A stretch of DNA of 25,013 bases, from positions 1-25,013 of IMG/VR virus record IMGVR_UViG_3300023199_000116, one strand, 5' to 3'. The notes beneath the pieces were generated by a model. The model ran no database searches, was not told where the DNA came from, and saw nothing but the letters and a program-made list of their open reading frames with translations. The translations under genes and the position numbers were made by a program. The DNA comes from a virus. Of this stretch, positions 7,178-23,953 are shown piece by piece (positions within the stretch are counted from its first letter, which is position 1; each line of letters begins with the position of its first letter).

Positions 7178-7999
7178 ATGAAACAGTACTTCGAATTAGT
7201 TCAAGAAATCCTTACACGAGGAGTAGATAAGCAAGATCGTACAGGTACTGGAACTATAAGCATTTTCGGACACCAGTCGAGATATGATCTATCAAAAGGT
7301 TTCCCGTTGGTGACCAGTAAGAAGGTCCATTTTAAATCCATTGTTCATGAACTCCTGTGGTTTATCAGCGGCGAAACAAATATTCAGTATCTGCAGAAGA
7401 ACGGCGTACGGATTTGGAACGAATGGGCGGACAAAGACGGAAACCTCGGACTAGTTTATGGGTACCAATGGAGACACTGGCCCACCTATCGGAACATTGG
7501 CGATGGTCTTTTTGACGAAGGTCGCGAAATAGACCAGCTGAAAAACGCAATTCGTGGCATCCGTAAAAATCCCGATTCTCGAAGGCACATAGTTACAGCA
7601 TGGAATCCGGCCGACCTCACTGAGATGCAGCTCCCACCCTGCCACATACTGTATCAGTTCTATGTTGCTGGCGGTAAACTAAGTTGTCAAATGTATCAGA
7701 GAAGCTGTGATGTGTTTTTAGGGGTGCCGTTTAACATTGCCTCTTACGCGCTACTAACTCACCTGGTTGCTCAGGTATGCAGTTTGGGGGTTGGTGATTT
7801 TATCCACACTTTGGGAGATGCTCACATCTACAAGAACCATCTTCCGCAGATTATCACCCAGCTGGAACGTGATCCGCGCCCATTGCCGACCCTGGAATTG
7901 AATCCAGATGTGAGGGGAATTGATGATTTCAAGTATGAAGACATTCGTCTCGTAGGTTATGATCCGCACCCGCACATCAAAGGGGAAGTGTCAGTATGA
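7178..7999 (+). CDS. thyA: Thymidylate synthase (ThyA type)
   Basis: A 273-residue folate-dependent thymidylate synthase, which methylates dUMP to dTMP using methylene-tetrahydrofolate and releases dihydrofolate. The family signature is plain: DRTGTGT near residue 20, the [19 protein letters not shown] stretch, the active-site Cys155 in [32 protein letters not shown] and the late [14 protein letters not shown]. coli ThyA is 264 residues, so this is full length. The ATG has AAAGG 9 nt upstream and follows the sigma70 promoter. Its last 4 bases (ATGA) overlap the dihydrofolate reductase start, which recycles the dihydrofolate made here. Confidence 0.97.
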
Positions 8000-8586
8000 T
8001 TCTATCACTGATTGCCTCCTACGCGAAAGACGAGAAGGGTCAATTGGTAATTGGGTGTGGAAACACGTCCCCCTGGTCTAGCCACGCCGATTTGTTGAGA
8101 TTCAGGGAATACACCAGGGGGCACCCGGTTATCATGGGTAGAAAAACCCACGAAGCGATTGGAAGAGTTCTACCAGGTAGGAAAAATATAGTTGTAACGT
8201 CACGTAACCTCCAAATTCCCGGAGTAACTATTGTGCATTCTGCAGAAGAAGCATTATCTGAGTGTAAAGGGGCTAACGAAGCTTTTATTATTGGCGGACA
8301 GTCTCTTTACGAATGGGCTCTGGATAAGGTAGAACGTATGTACATTACCGAGGTAGATACGAGGGTTTCTGGGGATGCTTTTTTCCCCAATTATAAGGAG
8401 AGGCATTTTAAACCCATTCACTTGGAAAAAGTTCCTGGGGAAAAATTTACTATACTTCAAAGATTTGATCGTAGGACTACCGCACACAAAGAAATTGAGG
8501 AAGACGGAGAAGCCGCAGATATTTCTACATCAGAGATGGACGAATGGGGTGATAACTTTCTCTTTTATGAAGGATACAATCTCTAA
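7996..8586 (+). CDS. folA: Dihydrofolate reductase
   Basis: A 196-residue DHFR that regenerates tetrahydrofolate with NADPH. Seen: [10 protein letters not shown] strand, the PW and [11 protein letters not shown] helix carrying the catalytic acidic residue (Asp of HAD), [41 protein letters not shown] and YITEV. It is longer than the usual 160 residues because of an inserted QLVIGCG segment and an acidic C-terminal stretch ([20 protein letters not shown]) before the final strand ([10 protein letters not shown]). The start overlaps thyA by ATGA, so the two are translationally coupled. The call is firm. Confidence 0.95.
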
Positions 8587-8891
8587 TGGAACCGGTAAGA
8601 TTTAAAGGATGCGTTCGTTTTGAAGACGGTGAGATGGTTTGCTTTTGCTACGAGTCGGATGTAAAAGCAGGACAGTGCGAGTGTAAGTCAAAATTCGATT
8701 TGCCCGAGTGCGTTATCACACTGGAGCAGATTGCTGGCACCCGTCCTTCTGAGCAAGAGGCTCCTGCCATAGTTAAAGAGATTAAATCTGCGGAAGGGCA
8801 TCTTAGAGAGTTAGCAAAGCAAAGTCAGGAAATTAAGAAGGGTTTGCAGAACTTGGAAAAGGCAGCCAAGGGTAGCCGTTTTCGAGTATGA
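8586..8891 (+). CDS. Small Cys-rich hypothetical protein
   Basis: A 101-residue protein whose ATG shares a base with the DHFR stop (TAATG). The N-terminal 45 residues hold six Cys (GCVRF, VCFCYES, QCECKSK, ECVITL), consistent with a metal site or a small Cys knot. The C-terminal half is a charged helix (KEIKSAEGHLRELAKQSQEI). It sits inside the nucleotide cassette between dihydrofolate reductase and dNMP kinase, so it may be co-regulated with them. No family recognised. Confidence 0.7.
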   Translation: MEPVRFKGCVRFEDGEMVCFCYESDVKAGQCECKSKFDLPECVITLEQIAGTRPSEQEAPAIVKEIKSAEGHLRELAKQSQEIKKGLQNLEKAAKGSRFRV

Positions 8892-8903
8892 GAGGATTTA
8901 TCC

Positions 8904-9479
8904 ATGAAGATCATTGGATTAGGTTGTACCGCACAGGTGGGAAAAGATACTGCAGCGGATTACTTAGAAAAGAAATATCCGGGACGTGTAAAGAAAGTTG
9001 CATTTGCTGATAAACTAAAGCGCACTGCCATGGAGCTTTTTGGTTTAACTTGGGAACAATGCTATGGAGATCAGAAAACCAAGGAAACTGTAGATCCTCG
9101 TTATGGCTTAACTCCGAGAGAGATTTTACAGGGAATTGGTGAGAAGTTGCGAGAGATTTGCCCTAGTATCTGGGTTGATACGGTTTTTAACACTACTATT
9201 CCAGAACTTGAAAAAGAGGGTTTTGATATCTTTGTCATTTCCGATGTGAGATACCCGAATGAGGGCGATAAAATTCACGAGCACGACGGTGTGGTTGTGA
9301 AAATTATTCGTGATAAAGGAGGGGTTACTGTTGGACAGGAACACTCAAGTGAAACTTCAATGCAAAATTATGAGGATTTCGACTTCGTCATTGAAAACAA
9401 TACAACCTTTCGGGAATTTTATACTAAGGTGGAGGGAGTGATGGAGGTAATCGATGGTGGAAAGAAGAGAAGGAACTAG
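8904..9479 (+). CDS. Deoxynucleoside monophosphate kinase
   Basis: A 191-residue P-loop kinase of the phage dNMP kinase type (as T4 gp1), which phosphorylates dNMPs with ATP. The P-loop GLGCTAQVGKDT is at residues 5-16, followed by AADYLEKKY. FADKLKRTAMELFGLTWEQC is the usual substrate-side stretch, RYGLTPREILQGIGEKLRE follows, and FVISDVRYPNEGDKI carries the conserved DVRxxNE. AGAGGA precedes the ATG. With thymidylate synthase and DHFR it forms a dNTP supply unit. The last 26 bases overlap the next gene. Confidence 0.9.
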   Translation: MKIIGLGCTAQVGKDTAADYLEKKYPGRVKKVAFADKLKRTAMELFGLTWEQCYGDQKTKETVDPRYGLTPREILQGIGEKLREICPSIWVDTVFNTTIPELEKEGFDIFVISDVRYPNEGDKIHEHDGVVVKIIRDKGGVTVGQEHSSETSMQNYEDFDFVIENNTTFREFYTKVEGVMEVIDGGKKRRN

Positions 9480-10864: not shown

Positions 10865-11398
10865 ATGTCTGACACGCGTCGCTGGTATAGTTGGGTGATC
10901 AAAAGAAACAGATACGAGAATGTTATCGGGCACATACGCGATAACGTAGCAGAAGTGGACAAGTACTTTTACCCCATGATTAAGAAAGAGTATCAAACTA
11001 AGAAGGGAATTAGGGTAAAGGATCGTCCCCTGTACGAAGGATATTTGTTTCTTCGTTACAATAATGCGGATGAGGTTTATCATAAACTCAGTGCCTGTCC
11101 GTTTATTACTACTTTTGCCGGCGCCGTGGAAGAGTATGAGATTGGTGCGATGGAGTCGGTACAAGGCAAGCTTATTACAGAAATTAAGGCTAGTAAATTC
11201 AAGAAAGGGGATATCGTCACTCTTTTGAGTGGCCCCTTTAAAAACTTTGATGCGTCTGTGTGCGGTGTCGAAGTGGATCAAATTAAAGTTAGAATTGACG
11301 CCAATATCCTTGGGCAGAGCGGAATCGACCTTGTTTTCGTTGAGGATCAGGTGGAACGTAAGTCGGAGCTACAAAATGCTGGAGTACAGACCATCTAG
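10865..11398 (+). CDS. NusG/Spt5-family transcription factor
   Basis: A 177-residue NusG-like protein. The NGN domain (about residues 5-105) shows RRWYSWVIKRNRYENVIGHI, YFYPMIKKEYQTKKGI, DRPLYEGYLFLRYN and PFITTFAGAVEEYE, all typical. The C-terminal KOW domain (about residues 112-168) shows FKKGDIVTLLSGPFKNFDAS and a closing VRIDANILGQSG. NusG proteins bind the RNA polymerase clamp and change pausing and termination; specialised paralogs such as RfaH act as antiterminators at particular sites. A phage copy just upstream of the head module fits a late-gene antiterminator, which is inference. AGGAG precedes the ATG. Family call is firm; NusG versus RfaH-type cannot be settled here. Confidence 0.88.
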   Translation: MSDTRRWYSWVIKRNRYENVIGHIRDNVAEVDKYFYPMIKKEYQTKKGIRVKDRPLYEGYLFLRYNNADEVYHKLSACPFITTFAGAVEEYEIGAMESVQGKLITEIKASKFKKGDIVTLLSGPFKNFDASVCGVEVDQIKVRIDANILGQSGIDLVFVEDQVERKSELQNAGVQTI

Positions 11399-12908: not shown

Positions 12909-15900
12909 TTGGCACTAGCTGAAGATCCGGAATTCCTTCAAAAATCACACACCCTCATACAGTTTTATCGGAAATATCCCGAGATAGCTGCCGAAGATCT
13001 TTTGGGTATCGACTTGAGTCCTATTCAAAATGTGGTCTTGCGGGCTATGTGGGATAAGAACTATGTAATGTCGATTATGTGTCGAGGTGCCGGAAAATGT
13101 ATAGGTAAGAATTCTTATATATTTACAGATCAAGGGTTGACGCAGATAAAAAACATGATGTCCAGAACAGGGATTTTACAAGAGGCAGATTTCTCTGTTT
13201 CTGATGGATATTCCTTAGCTCCCGCCCAGAAAATATACTATGACGGTGTAAAACCCGTTAACATAATTACTACCGCCTTTGGTTACTCCATCAATGTTAC
13301 TGACGAACACCCCCTTCTTATAGTATCTGAGGACGGTTGTTTAAGATGGAAAAAAGCAGCCGACATCCAGGAAGAAGATTATGTATGTTTGTCTAGAGGA
13401 GATAATGTTTGGGGAAAATCCTCCTCGGAAAAAGATCTCCCTTATTATCTAGGCCTACTTGTCGGCAATGGTTGTCTTACTAGAGAAAATTTAATTTCTT
13501 TTTCTAGTGAAGACGACGAACTTCTAAATCAATTTATATCTTTAACCGCTAACTTATTTGAGTATAAAGCTAAAATAAAAAAACCAAAAAACAGGTGTCG
13601 AGAAGTTAGGGTATATTCTAGAGATATCAGATCACAGCTTTTTTGTTTGGGATTGGATTATAGCCCGTCTTTTGAGAAAAAGTATCCCTCTTATATGTGG
13701 AATCAGGAAAGAAAGTCGGTAGTTTCTTTTCTACAAGGGCTGTTTGACACAGATGGTTATGTTTCCAAAACACGTCTGGGAGCTTCTTATTGTACTTCTA
13801 GTAAAGATCTAGCAGAGGTAGTACATCTTCTTTTGTTGAATCTCGGTATAGTTAGTAAAAAGAGATTTAAGAAGAATAAAAAGAGAGGCGCTTATATTAT
13901 AGAAATTGTTGGTAAAAACGCTATTTCATTCTGCAATACCGTAGGTTTTAGGTTGCATCGGAAACAAAATTTACTTTTAGAAAAAATAGCAGACTGTAAG
14001 ATAAATATGAACAGGGATGTGATCCCTTTTCAAAAAGAAAGATTCACAAGATTGTTTGAAGATTCTCATGGAATAGCTACCAGATCGATCCGGCAAAAAA
14101 TACATAAATATTCAAAATACTATGATGTTTCCTATGAGACCCTAGACAGCATTCTTTCATCTATAGATATTATTACAGAAGATACAAATGCCCTGCAGTT
14201 TATTAACAAAAGTAACCATTTTTTTGATCGCGTGGTTAGTAAAAGATTTGGTGCCGAAGAAGTTTACGATTTGTGTATGCCTGAAGAAAATCAACACGCC
14301 TTCGTTGCTAACGGGTTTATAAATCACAATACGTTCTTGCTTGGGGTTTTTGCCTGCTTGAAGGCCTTGCTTTACCCAGGACACCGGGTCGGATTACTTG
14401 CTCCTACTTTTCGCCAGTCCAAAATGATCTTCGACGAAATCACTAAGATATGGCAAAGATCTCCGATTCTGCAAACGGCTTCGGAAAGAAAACCAACGCA
14501 ACAGTCCGATAACTGCTATCTGCGTTTCAAGGCTACTGGGGGAAAGAATGGCTCCATTATCCAAGCTATTCCACTTGGTGATGGGTGTCTGTCCGACGGA
14601 CTCATTCTGTTGAACGACCGACTGTGCCTCATTCAAGATTTGCTTTCTGATGATTATTCCCCATTACGGGAAGAATATCTACAGAATGTATCTATTCTTA
14701 GTGAGAGTCGTTCTTTTTCCCCCGTGGAATACGTCTGGTCCAACGGTAAAACTGATAACATCTCCATAAAAACTATGCGACACTATGGCGTGGAGGGAAC
14801 TCCAAATCATCCTGTAAGGGTAGTTAGAGGTACCGAAATAGTTTGGTCTCGATTAGATCAATTGAAAGAAGGAGATTATATAGTTATTGATAGAACCCCT
14901 ACCTGGCATGGAGGAGGTTCCGAAATAACACAAGAAGAAGCATACGTTGCGGGACTGTTGGCCGGTGATGGCAATTACACAAATCAATACTATATAGGAT
15001 TTGCTACAAAAGATAGAGAATTATATCAGCGACTGAATGATTTTTTTAAACAGCACCACGGAAAAGAATTTGTAGCCGCTTCTGATTCTACACACTTTAA
15101 GCTAAGCGGAAAGAAAATTCGGGCCGACTTTTTGGAAAGACTAGGTATTTCTGGTCTTTACACCGGAGATAAATACTTTCCTTCTGAGATTCTAAAAGCA
15201 GAAAAATATAAGATGTCTGCATATATTCAGGGGTTGTTCGATACTGATGGCGGTTTTGAAGTTGGAAAAAATAAAGGCAGTGGTTGTGTTTCTTTTTATA
15301 ATACATCGTCTAGACTAGTTAAAGATCTCCAAAACATTCTACTTCTTTTCGGCATCGTATCTACAGTTTCTGTAAGGAAAAGTCGAAATAAGAACTGGGC
15401 AGATAGTTACCAACTAATGATTACTGGTAACGACGTAGAGTTGTTTTACAAGGAAATAGGATTTGGTCTGACACGCAAACAAACAGATCTTGAGCAATTT
15501 GTCTTCGGTCGAAAACGCAAAACGTCTACTTCAGATGGAATACCTCAGGCTAAAGGACTTATTACAGACATCATAGAAGAACATAAAGTCAAAGATTTGC
15601 GTAGTTTATATTTGAATTTAAACAATCAATATAAAAACGGTATTCCTGCCTACAGGATTCGTGCGTTTATTAAGCACTGCGTAAATTCAGGCATCAGAGA
15701 TTCTCGTCTTGATGTTTTGGTAGATTTGGTAGAAAAGAACTATTTTTACGATCGAGTGTCCCAAATAAGTAACTCCTGTTCGGAAACCTATGATGTGCAT
15801 GTTCCAAACGACCACACCTTTTGGTCAAATGGTTTCATTTCTCACAATACTAAAATTCGTGGTTCACGATTCTTCACTATTGTTTGTGATGAATTCCCTC

Positions 15901-17240
15901 ATATTCCAGCAGATATTTTTAATTCGGTTATTCGTCCAATGGGGGCCACGACCAGTGATCCGATGGAGCGTGTGCGTAGAGTTGAGCAACATAAAGAATT
16001 ACTAGAAAGAGGATTAATCACTCAAGAGCAGATTGACGAAGAAACTGCTTCTACGAACCAGATTGTGATTACATCATCTGGGTATTTCACGTTTAATCAC
16101 ATGTATAATCTTTATTGTGCTTACAAACTTGAGATGCTTCGGAATAACGAAAAGTATGCTGTTTTTAGGGTTCCTTACTGGCACTTACCCGAGGGATTTT
16201 TAGATATGGATAACGTTCAAGCGGCTAAACGTGAAATGTCCAGTTTAGAATTTCGAATAGAATACGAGGCAGCTTTCATTCCAGATACCGACGCTTTTTA
16301 TAAAGCCTCCCTGCTGGAAGCGTGCAGTCGAACTAATTTCCCAACCCAGGTTGTCGGGACTCCGGGAAAAACTTATTGTTTAGGTGTGGACCCGGCTAGA
16401 TCTGAAGACTCTTTTGCCCTTTGTATCATGGAGATGGATAGGCCCGCCAAAGTTGTTTGTGCGTACGAATTCCAGAAAGTTGCGTTTCCTAAAATGGCAG
16501 CTATTGTGGAAGATCTTTGCGACGCATTTAACATAGAATATATTTACATGGATGCTGCCGGCGGCGGTTTAGCTATAAAAGATATTCTAGCTGAAAATTC
16601 TCGACAACACCCCCTCGGACCCATTCTAGACCCCGATGATGCTGTTCACGAATTTAAAACCGGTCGTCACATTTTAACAATGTGTAATTTTACCACCGAT
16701 TTTATTTCAGAGTCTAACTTTGCTTGTTTACGTCTTTTGGAGCACCGGGATCTTCTCTTTCCCACCATTAATACGTCAGAGAATCCTAATGTTCAGGCCG
16801 ACGAGGCGTGGGAGACTATTCATAGAATGAAGCAGCAGATGCAAATTATCGAGTTAACAGAAACCCCCACCGGTAAGCATCATTTTGATGTGCCTAAGGG
16901 GGGAGGGCATGGAGAACAGAAGAAGGATTTGTATACCGCTTTCTTTTTAGCCGGTAGGTGCGTATATGATGTCATCTGGTCAGAGGCCCTGCCTGAAAGC
17001 ATTCTCCATCACGGGGGCGCTATACGTCCCCGAGACGGTGGAGATTCTGGCGCTTTTGGAGGATTGGATCAGCTTTCAGAATCTAATCCGGAGCTCGCAG
17101 AGCAGATCCGAGATAAGATAGAAATGACCGAAGATCCAGAAGGCTATCGTGCCCGATTGCTTCGTGGGGGAAACAAGCGAACTTTGGTAACTAGTACGGC
17201 TGCCGTTTTGAGACCGGCTTCCAGGAAAAAAAAGAGGTAA
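12909..17240 (+). CDS. terL: Terminase large subunit precursor with two inteins
   Basis: A 1443-residue precursor; removing the two inteins leaves a 611-residue packaging ATPase/nuclease. Extein landmarks: LSPIQNVVLRAMWDKNY (adenine-side motif); Walker A RGAGK (residues 59-63), completed by T475 after the first intein; Walker B FFTIVCDEF with Asp994-Glu995; coupling motif ITSSG; RNase H-type nuclease with LGVDPARSEDSFAL (Asp1161), YMDAAGGG and GEQKKDLYTAF. Both exteins rejoin to GAGKTFLLG and LGDGTKIRGSRFF, as expected for TerL. It starts at TTG directly after the upstream stop, with GGAAGAG before it. It pumps DNA through the portal, whose gene begins 3 bases after this one. Confidence 0.93.
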   Translation: MALAEDPEFLQKSHTLIQFYRKYPEIAAEDLLGIDLSPIQNVVLRAMWDKNYVMSIMCRGAGKCIGKNSYIFTDQGLTQIKNMMSRTGILQEADFSVSDGYSLAPAQKIYYDGVKPVNIITTAFGYSINVTDEHPLLIVSEDGCLRWKKAADIQEEDYVCLSRGDNVWGKSSSEKDLPYYLGLLVGNGCLTRENLISFSSEDDELLNQFISLTANLFEYKAKIKKPKNRCREVRVYSRDIRSQLFCLGLDYSPSFEKKYPSYMWNQERKSVVSFLQGLFDTDGYVSKTRLGASYCTSSKDLAEVVHLLLLNLGIVSKKRFKKNKKRGAYIIEIVGKNAISFCNTVGFRLHRKQNLLLEKIADCKINMNRDVIPFQKERFTRLFEDSHGIATRSIRQKIHKYSKYYDVSYETLDSILSSIDIITEDTNALQFINKSNHFFDRVVSKRFGAEEVYDLCMPEENQHAFVANGFINHNTFLLGVFACLKALLYPGHRVGLLAPTFRQSKMIFDEITKIWQRSPILQTASERKPTQQSDNCYLRFKATGGKNGSIIQAIPLGDGCLSDGLILLNDRLCLIQDLLSDDYSPLREEYLQNVSILSESRSFSPVEYVWSNGKTDNISIKTMRHYGVEGTPNHPVRVVRGTEIVWSRLDQLKEGDYIVIDRTPTWHGGGSEITQEEAYVAGLLAGDGNYTNQYYIGFATKDRELYQRLNDFFKQHHGKEFVAASDSTHFKLSGKKIRADFLERLGISGLYTGDKYFPSEILKAEKYKMSAYIQGLFDTDGGFEVGKNKGSGCVSFYNTSSRLVKDLQNILLLFGIVSTVSVRKSRNKNWADSYQLMITGNDVELFYKEIGFGLTRKQTDLEQFVFGRKRKTSTSDGIPQAKGLITDIIEEHKVKDLRSLYLNLNNQYKNGIPAYRIRAFIKHCVNSGIRDSRLDVLVDLVEKNYFYDRVSQISNSCSETYDVHVPNDHTFWSNGFISHNTKIRGSRFFTIVCDEFPHIPADIFNSVIRPMGATTSDPMERVRRVEQHKELLERGLITQEQIDEETASTNQIVITSSGYFTFNHMYNLYCAYKLEMLRNNEKYAVFRVPYWHLPEGFLDMDNVQAAKREMSSLEFRIEYEAAFIPDTDAFYKASLLEACSRTNFPTQVVGTPGKTYCLGVDPARSEDSFALCIMEMDRPAKVVCAYEFQKVAFPKMAAIVEDLCDAFNIEYIYMDAAGGGLAIKDILAENSRQHPLGPILDPDDAVHEFKTGRHILTMCNFTTDFISESNFACLRLLEHRDLLFPTINTSENPNVQADEAWETIHRMKQQMQIIELTETPTGKHHFDVPKGGGHGEQKKDLYTAFFLAGRCVYDVIWSEALPESILHHGGAIRPRDGGDSGAFGGLDQLSESNPELAEQIRDKIEMTEDPEGYRARLLRGGNKRTLVTSTAAVLRPASRKKKR
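13098..14330 (+). mobile_element. Intein 1, in the Walker A loop of TerL
   Basis: A 411-residue intein (precursor residues 64-474). It begins with Cys (CIGKNSYIF), has block B NVTDEHPLLI (T-x-x-H) and ends YDLCMPEENQHAFVANGFINHN minus its first residues, with terminal His-Asn and Thr +1. The LAGLIDADG nuclease motifs are YYLGLLVGNG (about residues 180-188) and FLQGLFDTDG. In the first the closing catalytic Asp is Asn187, so the nuclease may be impaired while splicing residues look intact. The insertion splits GAGK/T, so the ATPase cannot work unless splicing occurs. The DNA looks more AT-rich than the extein. Confidence 0.93.
14586..15848 (+). mobile_element. Intein 2, just before Walker B of TerL
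   Basis: A 421-residue intein (precursor residues 560-980). It begins with Cys (CLSDGLILL), has block B EGTPNHPVRV (T-x-x-H), and ends TFWSNGFISHN with Thr +1. Both LAGLIDADG motifs keep their acidic residues, VAGLLAGDG and YIQGLFDTDG, so the homing nuclease may be active. It shares layout and end motifs (GFI-x-HN) with intein 1, but the two are clearly diverged. The insertion point is between LGDG and TKIRG, about 13 residues before the Walker B acids. Confidence 0.93.
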
Positions 17241-17243
17241 TAA

Positions 17244-19130
17244 ATGTCGGACGAGGTCAAGGATAATATCAACAGGAATTTAGAGAATGCCGAAGTCCTC
17301 TCACACGAAGAAACTTCTCCGGGTGTTCACTCAATGGAAATTGAAGTTGGGGAAAGAGGTCGTTCTGCGAAGGATTTAGCTTATCTTACGGGAGAGGGAG
17401 GGCAACCCGGCCCCCTCCGTTTTCATGAGGGCGGTAGAATTATTACTCGTGACATTTTACGACGTACGGACGTTGATATTTTGCTTGAGGCGGGGGATCC
17501 GGCCAGGGTTCAACCTCAGAGAATGTATCAGAAAGCCATTTCGTTTTATAATACTAAATCACAATATGGCACAGTTATTGATATTCTTACTAACTTTGCC
17601 GCAAAGGGCTTTAAGAACGATATTGACGATCCTGACATTAAGCTTTTTTATGATACATGGGTCCGAGAGGTAGATTTTCATGCCACCGTAGAAAAAGTTT
17701 TCTTTGATTTTTTCCGAGTTGGGTTGGTCCGTACTTTTAAGATGGTAGGTAAACTGGATCCTAAGCTGAAGCCAGATAATTTCAATAGAATTATAAAAAA
17801 TAGAGCGAATGCTAATAGTTTTCAGACAGATCCAAAGCTAAAAGAATTTATGGCGTATCGAGACCTTGCTGCCGCCAAGAAAATCTGGTCAAAATCATTT
17901 GTTCCTTTAAAGTACACTATCTTAGATCCTCGGTTACTTGAGATTAAGGGCTCTACTCTTTTTGATCAAACGGAAACTTATATTAAAGCAGAAGCCTTTA
18001 ACGAACTAAGAAATGTTTTGCGAAATCCAAACCAACAAACGAAAGAACAAAGACAATTTTTAAAGTTTCTTCCCAAAGAACTTGTGGAGGCGGTTAAACA
18101 GAATAAACCCGTAAAATTGCCGACGGAATTGGTAGGAAAGTGCGACTATCGTAAGCAAGATTACGAACGATATCCCCGTCCCAAGTTTAGCCGAGCCTGG
18201 GATTTGCTTACCTACAAAGACGCGTTGATCAAGGCCGATCTTTCTACTTTGGATGGTATTACCAATTATATTCTTAAGATAACCATTGGTAACGACGAAC
18301 ATCCGGTTACTGATCAAGCGGATCTTGAAACGGTAGCGAAGTTATTTGATACTTCAAGTAAGAGTTTTGATGTTGTTTGGAATCACACGCTGAAGATAGA
18401 AAAAATTACTTTTCCGGAAATTAGTGATATTCTAGGAGAACAGAAGTTTAAGGAAGTAGATTCTGATCTTTTACAAACTTTTGGTGTTTCAAGAGCACTT
18501 CTTGACGGAACGGTTCAAGGAAACGCCAAGGCTATCGAGGCCGCTCTTAAATCCTTCGCCGAAGAAGTAGCTTACTCTAGACGTTGTGTAAAGAGATGGA
18601 TAGATAAGGAGTACGAAGAGATTGCTTTGGCTATGGGATTTGATAGATATCCTAATGTTCGCTTTGATGAAAATGCTCTTAAGGATGAGATAATGCTTAT
18701 GAGTGTGATTCAAGGTATGATTGATCGTCGCATTATTTCTTATGAAACCGGTATTGAAAAACTGGGGATGGATTTTGGAAACGAACTTACCAACATGAAG
18801 CAGGAGGCGCCGTTAGTGCAGGCTGGAACTTTTGGAATTATTGGTTCACCCTATCAAGCGCAGAAGGCACTGCCGCCAACTGAGACTCCGGTAGAAACGG
18901 ATACCACAAATGATTCTCAGAAAACTGTAGTTACTCAACAAGATTTGAAGGATTTCCAGAAGAATATAGAAGAGATGATTAAAACAGGTTTAACCACAAA
19001 ACAACCCAATATTCAAACTACACAGAGGACACCTAAGGGGACGCCGAGCGAAGGCCGTCCGCGCCGCGGCGGCCGTGGTAGGCCTCGTCAGAAATCTACA
19101 ACACCGGATATTAGGCCACGCAAGCCGTAA
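17244..19130 (+). CDS. Portal protein
   Basis: A 628-residue protein, 3 bases after the large terminase, with AGAGG before the ATG. The size, the position and portal-like stretches (KAISFYNTKSQYGTVIDILT, FYDTWVREVDFHATVEKVFF, DFFRVGLVRTFKMVGKL) support a portal, the dodecameric ring through which DNA enters the head. A long helical region follows around residues 430-480 (SRALLDGTVQGNAKAIEAAL, then YSRRCVKRWIDKEYEEIALA), matching the portal stem/wing helices. The last 80 residues are low-complexity and basic (RPRRGGRGRPRQKS). The call is by context and pattern; no short diagnostic motif exists. Confidence 0.82.
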   Translation: MSDEVKDNINRNLENAEVLSHEETSPGVHSMEIEVGERGRSAKDLAYLTGEGGQPGPLRFHEGGRIITRDILRRTDVDILLEAGDPARVQPQRMYQKAISFYNTKSQYGTVIDILTNFAAKGFKNDIDDPDIKLFYDTWVREVDFHATVEKVFFDFFRVGLVRTFKMVGKLDPKLKPDNFNRIIKNRANANSFQTDPKLKEFMAYRDLAAAKKIWSKSFVPLKYTILDPRLLEIKGSTLFDQTETYIKAEAFNELRNVLRNPNQQTKEQRQFLKFLPKELVEAVKQNKPVKLPTELVGKCDYRKQDYERYPRPKFSRAWDLLTYKDALIKADLSTLDGITNYILKITIGNDEHPVTDQADLETVAKLFDTSSKSFDVVWNHTLKIEKITFPEISDILGEQKFKEVDSDLLQTFGVSRALLDGTVQGNAKAIEAALKSFAEEVAYSRRCVKRWIDKEYEEIALAMGFDRYPNVRFDENALKDEIMLMSVIQGMIDRRIISYETGIEKLGMDFGNELTNMKQEAPLVQAGTFGIIGSPYQAQKALPPTETPVETDTTNDSQKTVVTQQDLKDFQKNIEEMIKTGLTTKQPNIQTTQRTPKGTPSEGRPRRGGRGRPRQKSTTPDIRPRKP

Positions 19131-19133
19131 GTA

Positions 19134-19208
19134 ATGGAAATTATCATACGGACCAAAAAAAAATGCCAGAAAACTGTACAACAGTTTACGGAGGACATTA
19201 GAAAATGA
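19134..19208 (+). CDS. Possible 24-residue peptide coupled to the next gene
   Basis: ATG 19134 starts a 24-codon frame reading MEIIIRTKKKCQKTVQQFTE and ending with a TGA that overlaps the next ATG (ATGA). It fills the whole gap after the portal gene. It contains a nine-A run and a perfect 7-bp hairpin, AAACTGT-ACA-ACAGTTT (19171-19187). There is no good ribosome site, so it may only be an untranslated spacer. Confidence 0.3.
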   Translation: MEIIIRTKKKCQKTVQQFTEDIRK

Positions 19209-21523
19209 CCGACAATAGTAATACAAAAGATAAGTTTAAGTCCCGCACCGCTTCGGAATTTAAGAAGGAGTTGAAGGACTTTGCCCTAGTCGTAGGAGAA
19301 GAGTGTCCTGAAGGACATCGAAGAGATCCATCTAGTGGGGCGTGTCTGCCTATCACCGGCATGGATCATACCAAGTTTACCACCAGCCTAAACGATGACC
19401 AGGGCCCCGAGTGGAGGGGCGAGGTGGATAAAACCAATGATACTTTTGATAATGAAGAAGATATCGCTGATCGCGCCGAAACCGCAATGGACGCCGAAGT
19501 AATGGACGAACGAAATAGTTGTGCACAGGGGACTACGTTCTCTTTTGTTCAAAACAAGTGCGTAACTTTAGAAGAGGCCGAAGCAGAAAATAACGACGCA
19601 TTCGCAATGAACGAAGAGGGCGAATATGTAGAAGACGCTGATCACGTTGACGTTGTTGCTCTAGATCCGGAAGGCAGAAAAGATACTATAAACTTTCAAT
19701 GCCCCCCGAATCAGTTTTTTGATCACAAGCTCAGAGAATGCGTCCCACTCAACAAAGACACAGTTATGGCGTCCGAAAATTTTAGCGAAGAATTCAAGCA
19801 GGCGGTGGCCACCTTTGCACGAATTGCTAAGACCTCTTCGGATACTACAGACGGGCATCGACATGTTGCTACCCTTAGTGCGGAGGGGGATGGGGTGACT
19901 TCCGCTGCTGGTCTCGGAGATCGAATTCACAGCCACGTGGTAAAAAATTTCGTAGTTAAAGACTTTGTTACCGAGGAATATACTTCCAGACACCCCGGCG
20001 TAATAGTTCCAGAAGAGCACCATTTGGAAGAGATGGAAGAAAACTTCGGCAGCGAACAACGCGAGGTTGCGGAGCCCCTCGATACTTCTCAGAGAAAATC
20101 TCTCCCGTCAAGTGCGTTTGGTGTTCCAGGGAAGAGAAAGTTTCCTTTGGACACTTGTAACCGTGTAAAAAACGCCATGGCCCGATTCAATCAGGCTAAA
20201 GGACTTACCGCCTCAGAAAAGTCTACGCTTCGACGTAAGATTTTGGCCCGTGCCAAGTCTTGTGGAATTCAGGTGGATAATTTCGCAAAGGCAGAAACCG
20301 AAAAAGATTTCCAAGCGGTTGTGCTGGAGATGTTACCGATTAATGAACGAGTTACAAAAATCTATTCGGTCGATATGGATAAAAAACAAGGCCCTTGTCC
20401 TCCAGGAATGGTGTGGAATCCTGTAACCAAGAAGTGCGAGAAGTCTCGAGGATTTATTGAGTCTATCCTAGAAGAGTCCAACCACCCCGAGATTGTTTCC
20501 AAGGATCCCGAGGGTCGTAGAGATCCAGTCGGTTTTCGATGTCCACCGGATCAACTTTTTGATTTCAAGCTTAGAAAGTGCATTCCTCTGAATAAAGATA
20601 CCGTATTGGCTTCCGAGACAGATGCAACGAACAGAGACCTGTCTCCTCTCCCAGAAGGTAAACCCGCCCGTCTCTCCCAGGATTGCCCTGAGGGTACTAT
20701 CTGGGATGCAGATCTTCGAAAGTGTAAGCCTCTAGACAGCAGGAAAAAGATTTCTTCTTCTGACGAGGAGGCGGCGTTGCCGGACTTTATTCAGAAAATG
20801 ATTGATAAGAAGAAGGGTAAGCGGGGTAAGAAAGAAGAGAAGTCCCAGACGCCTGCCTCTGGACCAGGCAAAGAGAAAGACGACCACGGCTGCGCTCCTT
20901 TCCAGGTGTGGAATCCTGAGACCGAAAAGTGTGAATCTAGAAAGGGTAGCTTTAAAGGGAAGAGTGAGAAGGAAAATGCAGAAAATGCAATGCCAGACAA
21001 TAGAGAGGGTCTCACGGACGAAGTTCCGGGCAAAGTTAAACTTCCCTCTGACTGTCCTCCTGGAACTATCTGGGACGGAACGCGTCGGACCTGCACCCCT
21101 TTAGATACTCGTGAGAAGAATCGACCGAGCGGGTCTTCTGGTCCACAACCGCCTACGGACGTCGCCTCCGAATCTCAGATTGAAAGCCTGTCGCTCAATA
21201 GAGTTATCTCCCACCTTGATGAAATAATTCGAGAAGAAGTTAAGGCTGGTCGAAAAGAGAAGGGTAAGGTTGCTGCTAAAGATTTGCCTAACGAAGCTTT
21301 TCCGCCTTCTTTGGTAAATTCTAGTCGACGTGCCTTGATGCACCACCTCCCCGAAGTTGCAGATGCTTACGATACCGAAACAGTGGATGTAGTTCGACTT
21401 CGAAACGCCCTTGCTCGAGTATCTTCTGTGCAAGGTTTTGCTAAGCAAGCAGTTGAGGACGCCTGTGAGCATCTTCTTTTCCACGCCCGAGAGATTTTAA
21501 AGAGTCGATTGGGAAAAATCTAA
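19205..21523 (+). CDS. Head-module protein with C-x12-C repeats (0-frame product)
   Basis: A 772-residue acidic protein with GGAGG upstream of the ATG. Eight copies of a Cys-pair motif, each exactly C-x12-C, occur at 34-47, 106-119, 166-179, 398-411, 446-459, 494-507, 563-576 and 617-630 (for example CPPGTIWDGTRRTC). Two copies lie in a longer duplication (DPEGRKD...CPPNQFFDHKLREC and DPEGRRD...CPPDQLFDFKLRKC, both followed by PLNKDTV). A His-rich stretch (DGHRHVATL, then RIHSHVV) lies at 216-246. A helical domain (LDTCNRVKNAMARFNQAKGL, 315-334) recalls DUF6582-like phage proteins, and a related one is at 694-771. It lies between portal and protease, so a scaffold or capsid-associated role is likely. 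It ends on a -1 slippery site. Confidence 0.8.
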   Translation: MTDNSNTKDKFKSRTASEFKKELKDFALVVGEECPEGHRRDPSSGACLPITGMDHTKFTTSLNDDQGPEWRGEVDKTNDTFDNEEDIADRAETAMDAEVMDERNSCAQGTTFSFVQNKCVTLEEAEAENNDAFAMNEEGEYVEDADHVDVVALDPEGRKDTINFQCPPNQFFDHKLRECVPLNKDTVMASENFSEEFKQAVATFARIAKTSSDTTDGHRHVATLSAEGDGVTSAAGLGDRIHSHVVKNFVVKDFVTEEYTSRHPGVIVPEEHHLEEMEENFGSEQREVAEPLDTSQRKSLPSSAFGVPGKRKFPLDTCNRVKNAMARFNQAKGLTASEKSTLRRKILARAKSCGIQVDNFAKAETEKDFQAVVLEMLPINERVTKIYSVDMDKKQGPCPPGMVWNPVTKKCEKSRGFIESILEESNHPEIVSKDPEGRRDPVGFRCPPDQLFDFKLRKCIPLNKDTVLASETDATNRDLSPLPEGKPARLSQDCPEGTIWDADLRKCKPLDSRKKISSSDEEAALPDFIQKMIDKKKGKRGKKEEKSQTPASGPGKEKDDHGCAPFQVWNPETEKCESRKGSFKGKSEKENAENAMPDNREGLTDEVPGKVKLPSDCPPGTIWDGTRRTCTPLDTREKNRPSGSSGPQPPTDVASESQIESLSLNRVISHLDEIIREEVKAGRKEKGKVAAKDLPNEAFPPSLVNSSRRALMHHLPEVADAYDTETVDVVRLRNALARVSSVQGFAKQAVEDACEHLLFHAREILKSRLGKI

Positions 21524-21570
21524 GCACTGAGGGTCAGGTTACTAACCCTCACGATTTTCATCCTCAGTGC
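21511..21570 (+). promoter_or_regulatory. Programmed -1 frameshift signal: slippery site plus stem-loop
   Basis: In the 0 frame the codons end TTG GGA AAA ATC TAA, giving the heptamer G_GGA_AAA (21511-21517), a canonical X_XXY_YYZ site. After a 6-nt spacer that includes most of the stop context comes a perfect 9-bp stem, GCACTGAGG (21524-21532) with CCTCAGTGC (21562-21570). The spacing is in the range known for stimulatory structures. A competing 7-bp stem, TGAGGGT (21528-21534) with ACCCTCA (21545-21551), overlaps the first. The -1 frame downstream is coding. Confidence 0.8.
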
Positions 21571-21870
21571 AGACCCGAAGAGGTTTTTGACCCTAAATCG
21601 GGATCCTGCATTCCCATAACCAATGTTAAGGGACAGGCTCCAGTAGGAACGCTAGAGTGTCCTATTGGTTTCGTCCTGGACGAGAAACTAGGGATGTGTA
21701 CGCCGGAAAATCCTAGATCTCAGGCGCAAACGAACTCCCAACCTTTTGATAAAATGGAAAGATGTGTTCAAAGCGTAAAGATAGTCGTAGGTAAGAAGCA
21801 TCCTAAGTTGAAAGATAAAGATTTAAAGAGCGCTGCGGCAGCAATTTGCAGAGCAAGATTAAGGAAATAA
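21517..21870 (+). CDS. -1 frame extension of the C-x12-C repeat protein
   Basis: A 117-codon frame open from the slippery site to TAA 21868-21870, with no suitable start codon and ribosome site near its beginning. It carries two further C-x12-C motifs, CRPEEVFDPKSGSC and CPIGFVLDEKLGMC, with the same spacing and the same Cys-Pro and F/W/L-D pattern as the eight repeats upstream. It ends in a helical motif (MERCVQSVKIVVG, then SAAAAICRARLRK) of a kind I recall at the ends of phage head proteins. Joined by the -1 shift it gives an 888-residue protein. The repeat continuity shows this is the same protein; whether the shift is programmed or an artefact rests on the signal described at 21511. Confidence 0.82.
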   Translation, partial: NLSTEGQVTNPHDFHPQCRPEEVFDPKSGSCIPITNVKGQAPVGTLECPIGFVLDEKLGMCTPENPRSQAQTNSQPFDKMERCVQSVKIVVGKKHPKLKDKDLKSAAAAICRARLRK

Positions 21871-21886
21871 CATCTTAAAAGATATC

Positions 21887-21944
21887 CCCGAAGGGTCTTC
21901 GGGATGCCGGTTAGAAACTAGGAATCCCCGAGCGATGCTCGGGG
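21887..21944 (+). other. Two tandem strong hairpins in a 152-bp gap
   Basis: CCCGAAG-GGT-CTTCGGG (21887-21903) is a perfect 7-bp stem, and CCCCGAGC-GAT-GCTCGGGG (21926-21944) a perfect 8-bp stem, both with 3-nt loops. Neither is followed by a T run. They lie after the extension stop and before AAGGAGG of the next gene. They could stabilise upstream mRNA, be processed, or end transcription weakly. The remaining sequence to 22022 shows nothing else. Confidence 0.55.
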
Positions 21945-22022: not shown

Positions 22023-22307
22023 ATGTTCGGAGATTCGTTCTGGGAGTTTCTAAGAACTCTTTTAGAAAATTACGGACTGCTGGCCCTTGTTGAAGTGGTT
22101 CAGATTTTTGTTATAGTTCATCTGTTCCGGCTTCTAAACAGTAAGGAATTAGAAAAATTTAAACTAACGGAAAAACTTTTGGAACTTTCTGAAAGAAGAC
22201 TGGAAGACGCTAAAGAGGAAAGAGAAGACTACGAGGAACTCGCAAGGAATCTTGATAAGTCGATTAACCTCCTGGTAAAAGTTTTCCAGCACCGAAATGG
22301 AGATTAA
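22023..22307 (+). CDS. Small membrane-anchored coiled-coil protein
   Basis: A 94-residue protein with AAGGAGG before the ATG. Residues 15-35 are hydrophobic (NYGLLALVEVVQIFVIVHLF), a single likely membrane segment. The rest is a long charged helix (TEKLLELSERRLEDAKEERE, YEELARNLDKSINLLVKVFQ). Such an arrangement occurs in holin-like and accessory head or lysis proteins, but I cannot assign a role. It sits in the head module between the repeat protein and the protease. Confidence 0.7.
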   Translation: MFGDSFWEFLRTLLENYGLLALVEVVQIFVIVHLFRLLNSKELEKFKLTEKLLELSERRLEDAKEEREDYEELARNLDKSINLLVKVFQHRNGD

Positions 22308-22534: not shown

Positions 22535-23953
22535 ATGTCGCAAGAGAATATGGTTAGAGTCTATGCGCCCATAGACGTGCAACAGCACGTAGCTAAGTCC
22601 GCACAGGAAAAGGCCGCCGTTCTTGCATTTCCGGAGGAAAAGCAGGGGGATCTACAGTATATTCGATCCATCCTTGTTTCTGCAGGGACAAACAAGAACG
22701 GTGCACATTTTTTACCTTCTGAAATGATGAAGGCGCATAACACTATTGTCCACAAAGCAATCGATATCGAACACGACGAAGAAAGGGTAATCGGTCACAT
22801 CTATGATTGCGCCTTCCTTTTTAAGGATGGAGAACAATTTGATCCCCTGAAATTAATGGCGGAGTATCAAGAATCTGCCAACAACCCAGACGAGGTTGAC
22901 ATCGACATTGCAGTTGCCGGTGTAATTCATAAGATGCGATTCCCAGAGTATGCTGAGGAAATTATGGCTGGAGACTGGAAGGTTTCCATGGAGTGTTACT
23001 TCAAAGATTTCGATATTAAGATTGGAAATCAAATCATCACGCGAGACGAAGCGTCAGCGCTCGGATACAATCCCGATGACTTGATTGGCGGCTTCGTTAA
23101 GGTTGTTGCAGGTCAGAAGGCCCTAGGTAAGCACTTTGTTGCTCGCGTTTTACGTAATATTACGTTTAGTGGTATGGGCATAGTGAAGAATCCTGCAAAC
23201 CCTCATTCCATTATAATGGAAACCGCTGCCCATAAGGAGTTGATGGAAAAGGGCGATCTGGTAATCGATATGGAGCACGTGGACAACCTCCGGGGTAACA
23301 GTAAGGTTAGTATTAGGAGTGAAAAAGCAGAAACACAGGTTGATAGTTCGGAAGAATTATCAGATATTTCACTTCAGGAAGTGACGACTGTGGTCGATAA
23401 TCTTTTGGCCGAACAAGTCTATATTGAAATAGATAAAGAAACTGGCGGCATTAAACGCATCCTGTCTGTTGGAGGAAAAGAGGATGCCGCTCTTCGGTGG
23501 AACGGTCCAGGGATTGGTGGTCCCGGCACGGTGGAGTCTTACCCGGACAACCTTTGCAAGAGCTTTAAGAAAAGACTTACAAAGTTTAATGCATTAGATC
23601 AGTCTGAAAATCAGATAGTCCATGAGCACTGGTGTGCTCTATTTGAGGAACCCTGCCCCGTTATTGGAGCAACTGCTAAGGCCCCCGAATGCCTCCGTAA
23701 CGTTCGGAATAGAACTACCCGCGACGAACAAGACAATGTATTAACCAAAACTGTCCGAGAGCATGTCGATCAGGGTCCCGGAAACACATTTACTACCAAT
23801 CTTCAAAATAACACCGTAGATTTTGCGCGAGCTGGCCAAACTACGGTTGGTAACAGAAGAGAACAAATTAATCGTTTGCGAGAAGAGGCCCAATCTCTAC
23901 GTAACTCCTTACGCGAATTTGAGATAACCGTTGAAAAAAAAAGTTCCGAATAA
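22535..23953 (+). CDS. Prohead protease with C-terminal extension (0-frame product)
   Basis: A 472-residue protein with AGGAGG upstream. The N-terminal 230 residues match phage head-maturation proteases of the assemblin-like serine type: LVSAGTNKNGAHFLPSEMM, IDIEHDEERVIGHIYDC with candidate catalytic His80, DWKVSMECYFKDFD with candidate Ser151, and NITFSGMGIVKNPANP. The protease cleaves scaffold and capsid proteins during head maturation. The remaining 240 residues include a Cys-containing domain (NALDQSENQIVHEHWCALFE) and a terminal coiled coil (INRLREEAQSLRNSLREFEI), possibly a fused scaffold. The gene ends in GAA AAA AAA AGT TCC GAA TAA, and the -1 frame past the A run is coding. Confidence 0.82.
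   Translation: MSQENMVRVYAPIDVQQHVAKSAQEKAAVLAFPEEKQGDLQYIRSILVSAGTNKNGAHFLPSEMMKAHNTIVHKAIDIEHDEERVIGHIYDCAFLFKDGEQFDPLKLMAEYQESANNPDEVDIDIAVAGVIHKMRFPEYAEEIMAGDWKVSMECYFKDFDIKIGNQIITRDEASALGYNPDDLIGGFVKVVAGQKALGKHFVARVLRNITFSGMGIVKNPANPHSIIMETAAHKELMEKGDLVIDMEHVDNLRGNSKVSIRSEKAETQVDSSEELSDISLQEVTTVVDNLLAEQVYIEIDKETGGIKRILSVGGKEDAALRWNGPGIGGPGTVESYPDNLCKSFKKRLTKFNALDQSENQIVHEHWCALFEEPCPVIGATAKAPECLRNVRNRTTRDEQDNVLTKTVREHVDQGPGNTFTTNLQNNTVDFARAGQTTVGNRREQINRLREEAQSLRNSLREFEITVEKKSSE
23934..23943 (+). promoter_or_regulatory. A-run slippery site at the end of the protease gene
   Basis: Nine A followed by G. In the 0 frame this gives A_AAA_AAA, a classic -1 slippery heptamer, 10 nt before the TAA. 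The -1 frame is closed by a TGA just upstream (23932-23934) and open just after, so the run lies in the only window where the frames can join. No strong stem-loop or upstream Shine-Dalgarno-like stimulator is evident. A single missing A would give the same picture. Confidence 0.55.

Follow-up and report, generated by a model that had tools for sequence, protein, structure and literature searches.

The head-module repeat gene described here, which belongs to an uncultivated virus family, very probably ends in a programmed -1 ribosomal frameshift. The slippery heptamer, GGGAAAA, lies in the 0-frame phase G_GGA_AAA at nt. 21511-21517 of the window (the whole 25,013-base stretch analysed, an IMG/VR virus record of the linear class), and the 0-frame stop (TAA, nt. 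21521-21523) follows the heptamer and a single codon (ATC), just as the earlier note had described. The -1 frame is free of stops from nt. 21469 to a TAA at nt. 21868-21870, which agrees with the 117 open codons claimed for it; the extension (nt. 21511-21870) adds 117 residues past the GK common to both forms, and the remaining two frames of this region are full of stops. By eye, no conserved Shine-Dalgarno stimulator is apparent in the 45 nt upstream of the heptamer. All features of this locus and of the neighboring head-region genes given below lie on the plus strand.

The 0-frame ORF (nt. 19205-21523) encodes a 772-aa repeat protein with eight C-x12-C modules, which are CBM_14-like, a DUF6582-like region, and a C-terminal LPHH-type domain (LPNxAFPPSL...LMHH...VDVxRLRNALAR, nt. 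21260-21517) that is conserved as far as the heptamer. Pfam matches were obtained to CBM_14 (E 3.7e-20) and DUF6582 (E 1.3e-7). The CBM_14 score of 72.3 bits (cut-off 22.1) comes with a best stretch covering only positions 28-48 of the 53-position profile, and this partial match is a lead only as to possible chitin or glycan binding by the C-x12-C modules. Searches of annotated phages found no relatives for the extension, for the portal-like protein, or for the LPHH domain, and gave a single weak match, to the DUF6582-like part only; likewise, megablast of the window against 50,697 annotated phage records gave no match. More distant proteins with a related LPHH domain (L064-L075) are without such a frameshift and have other architectures.

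Judged by gene order alone, the product of this ORF would belong to the head module. The gene directly upstream encodes a portal-like protein (nt. 17244-19130), matching PHROG portal families at E 6.6e-7 and 9.9e-7. Downstream of the extension lie a small protein with a putative membrane helix and coiled coil (nt. 22023-22307; assigned by eye and found in the same place in relatives) and a conserved 472-aa protein (nt. 22535-23953) in the place usual for a prohead protease, followed farther downstream by genes resembling those of scaffold and head proteins. The earlier placement of the repeat gene between portal and protease stands on the portal side; the protease label does not have the same backing, as family, fold, and structure searches with the 472-aa product returned no named identity and its predicted structure reached a pLDDT of 34 only. 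From its position, a protease is plausible.

Elsewhere in the window, the terminase large subunit (1443 aa, nt. 12909-17240) contains two inteins with LAGLIDADG endonuclease domains inside. We also noted a nucleotide gene set (nt. 7178-9479) comprising a thymidylate synthase, a dihydrofolate reductase, and a deoxynucleotide monophosphate kinase-like protein, together with a NusG-like protein (nt. 10865-11398, E 7.5e-8) and a FAD-dependent oxidoreductase of the DAO family (nt. 1560-2780, E 5.6e-57). A tRNA search of the window found none, and the window had no match in Rfam. Two short G+C-rich inverted repeats, CCCGAAGGGTCTTCGGG (nt. 21887-21903) and CCCCGAGCGATGCTCGGGG (nt. 21926-21944), lie between the -1 stop and the next gene; neither is followed by a T run, and neither matched Rfam.

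Relatives of the locus were sought with two queries, the extension and the final 86 codons of the 0 frame, and 22 further contigs were found (21 virus contigs and one contig from a metagenome-assembled genome, L042). Three of the 22 are 196-298 kb in size, and two of these, from the same sample, are identical at the locus. L042 (WJJK01000045.1; 49.6 kb) was independently deposited under an Altiarchaeales MAG label; it is probably a viral contig binned with the MAG, either through misbinning or as a hint of an archaeal host. The homologue comparison called for by the earlier note bore out its reading, with an in-phase X_XXY_YYZ heptamer followed, zero or one codon on, by the 0-frame stop at 23/23 loci. 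Each of these loci has its extension in the -1 frame (the sequence of L034 ends 15 codons into it), and a fusion encoded in one frame was found at none of the 23. At the level of sequence, the heptamer, its phase, the stop, the -1 coding, and their conservation are established.

The heptamer itself varies, with GGGAAAA at 10 loci and AAAAAAA at 13; with A_AAA_AAA in place of G_GGA_AAA at more than half of the loci, it is the slippery shape that is kept and not one sequence. Mapped onto the 0-frame protein tree, the heptamer type requires three changes, one of them forced by well-supported branches. L019, L021, and L025, which had been candidates for long-linker exceptions, were dismissed as such, all three carrying A_AAA_AAA GAG TAG. 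Across the 23 loci, the Lys at the slip site is always encoded by AAA (21% of Lys codons in these ORFs) and the Gly always by GGA (31% of Gly codons), counts that, like the conservation itself, are not independent trials because the loci are related, and that point in the same direction everywhere. A/G-type X_XXY_YYZ heptamers occur elsewhere in these ORFs at 5 per 16,617 in-frame codon positions, against 21/21 non-identical loci at the slip site.

As a homopolymer run in metagenomic sequence, the site is where an assembly or sequencing error might be looked for, and a decaying gene could be split in the same manner. However, the identical split recurs in 23 contigs from many samples, including the independently deposited L042, while the heptamers and run lengths vary among the loci, and the extension is under purifying selection, its median dN/dS of about 0.18 being near the 0.165 of the upstream domain. 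Sequencing error is excluded by the conservation of the split, and we consider the chance that error or decay accounts for the locus to be negligible.

The same runs raise transcriptional slippage, in which stuttering of the polymerase along the A's would yield mRNA lacking one base or carrying two more, from which the -1 frame is read. In some IS elements and secretion genes, such slippage is known to take the place of frameshifting (PMC5009743), and 13 of the loci here have runs of 7-8 A's. Against this, four non-identical loci (L017, L020, L022, and L034) have 4 A's only and two, the window included, have 5, so that these short runs at six loci make slippage by RNA polymerase unlikely as the common mechanism. 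Polymerase slippage also needs no tandem X_XXY_YYZ phase, yet the GGG ahead of the A's is kept at every GGGAAAA locus. We therefore regard transcriptional slippage as a very unlikely explanation of the conserved arrangement; it could contribute at the loci with 8 A's.

Ribosomal frameshifting as the preferred reading gains further support from the region past the stop. In the window, the 5' arm of a stem, GCACTGAGG (nt. 21524-21532), begins directly past the stop and 6 nt past the heptamer, and pairs with a 3' arm, CCTCAGTGC (nt. 21562-21570), to give a perfect 9-bp stem, or an 11-bp form with one G-U pair in which the arms span nt. 21524-21534 and 21560-21570. The 6-nt spacer falls in the 5-9 nt range usually studied (PMC5009743). 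Over 19 loci, the fold past the stop is more stable than under synonymous randomisation of the -1 codons (Stouffer z -4.4), and a stem starting right at the stop is stronger than the synonymous expectation (combined p 2e-5). The stem arms differ by group (GCACTG/CAGTGC in one and GCGGATG/CATCCGC in the other), and L042 has a stem of its own, GCGGGTGGAA with TTCCACCCGC (z -4.6). Covariation is weak, with one two-sided change per group, which is not above the shuffle control. The 9-bp stem at 6 nt that the earlier note had reported thus stands for the window and keeps its position in most lineages, and does not extend to every one of them, a stem at that place being absent in L019, L021, L025, and L026; we conclude that the stem is likely a feature of most lineages, not proven in all.

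The extension continues the architecture of the 0-frame protein. It had been claimed that the C-x12-C repeat, present eight times upstream, carries on in the -1 frame, and we counted exactly eight modules in the 0-frame protein and two in the extension. The first of these (CRPEEVFDPKSGSC, nt. 21568-21609) is the best conserved part of the extension, and the second is CPIGFVLDEKLGMC (nt. 21658-21699); the CBM_14 score of the extension (20.3 bits) lies below the cut-off of 22.1. They are followed by a helical C-terminal module (KMERC...AICRARL, or AICRSRL; nt. 21751-21858), predicted as two helices with a pLDDT of about 85. A fold search with the model of the extension (pLDDT 70, pTM 0.34) gave no significant match. 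Across relatives, the extension comprises a common core of two C-x12-C modules and a variable tail, with the helical module present in the window and most relatives, and the tail absent or different in L020 and L022-L024. The modular nature of the extension is new here.

With a conserved protein sequence of its own and an overlap with the end of the upstream ORF, the -1 ORF might be taken for a separate gene with its own start. At most loci, however, there is no ATG, GTG, or TTG in the -1 frame ahead of the conserved CRPEE module, so that a separate start does not explain these extensions. The -1 frame of L014 and L015 opens only at the heptamer, and conservation of the heptamer would not be expected of a separate gene, which leaves this explanation highly improbable.

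In two relatives, the tail is a Dps/ferritin domain (PF00210), with E 1e-21 over profile positions 2-137 of 142 in L017 and E 1.4e-18 over positions 7-136 of 142 in L038. The L017 tail also matched a solved Dps structure, 8ff9 (E 9.7e-31). Such frameshift-linked Dps fusions are confined to L017 and L038, and the window has no Dps tail. Separate Dps-like genes begin no more than 10 bases past the end of the extension in three other relatives (L009:5356-5871, L026:5315-5809, and L042:5692-6210). By eye, the Dps domain of L017 is like those of L009 and L042, and that of L038 like that of L026, a likeness which suggests two fusions of the neighboring Dps gene. There is no start codon between the core and the Dps domain of L017, and its Dps domain, therefore, seems reachable by frameshift only; in L038, initiation at an internal ATG behind AAAAGGAGAGG would be an alternative route to the domain. 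A Dps appended through a frameshift appears to be new, and we found no report of one.

We infer from these features the slippage itself, its efficiency, the tRNA step, and the place of both forms in the virion head. With the ribosome at GGA AAA, the Gly and Lys tRNAs would re-pair together one base back (GGG AAA), helped by the stop one codon on and, in most lineages, by the stem-loop right behind the stop. The majority of ribosomes would end at the TAA to give the 772-aa protein, while a minority would continue in the -1 frame, adding the 117 residues with two further C-x12-C modules and the helical tail. As the first 771 residues are common to both forms, the long form is probably incorporated, as a minor subunit, where the short form builds its structure, and would supply that structure with an additional C-terminal module. 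More tentatively, and with the odds somewhat against it, the frameshift may be a device by which the head receives cargo domains, on its surface or inside, in a small and fixed number, the repeat protein being the carrier, the -1 frame an exchangeable slot, and Dps the cargo in at least two lineages, travelling with the virion.

Among tailed phages, the most familiar programmed frameshifts are those of tail chaperones and of a few coat or major tail proteins. The frameshift described here concerns a different head-region gene, is exceptionless in the sample, and occurs in a lineage with contigs near 300 kb, where the -1 frame would act as an exchangeable slot for C-terminal modules, Dps among them. 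Gene callers would divide such genes, with the long form overlooked. The locus also lends itself to testing how phages control the proportions of plain and decorated head subunits. The mechanism is known, and its use in a head-module repeat gene appears new; literature searches that took in few subscription papers found no precedent, either for portal-adjacent genes with a frameshift or for frameshifts of jumbo phages.

With the tail chaperone frameshift (gpG/gpGT in lambda, and its relatives), the site shares the slippery class, the -1 direction, and a minor long form; the slip site of the phiCbK tail assembly chaperone is AAAAAAC (PMC3556154). Tail chaperone genes directly precede the tape measure gene, whereas the gene here has a portal-like gene on its upstream side and head-module genes downstream, and no tape measure gene was seen downstream (judged by gene order) in the part of the window and relatives examined. 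By position, then, this is not a tail-chaperone frameshift.

A likeness in use is found in the coat proteins extended by frameshift in T7/T3, the Lactobacillus phage A2, and the Listeria phages A118, A500, and PSA, and in the Ig-like domains appended by frameshift, where the direction is -1 in most and +1 in PSA (PMC5009743). There, as here, a short major and a long minor head form differ by an added C-terminal domain. Those systems, however, concern the major coat gene and add Ig-like domains, whereas here it is a gene for a Cys-repeat protein beside the portal, and what is added is C-x12-C units followed by a helical or a Dps tail; Pfam and PHROGs gave no match to Ig-like domains or to coat proteins. 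The Ig-like cases also alternate between frameshift types and in-frame fusion, in contrast to the frameshift found in every relative examined here. Finally, phage-encoded Dps is known, for example in the 'Gratiaviridae', where it is described as a phage-encoded enzyme (PMC8008677). In L009, L026, and L042, Dps is encoded by the next gene past the extension, whereas the head-module protein of L017 and L038 has the domain fused to its -1 frameshift product.
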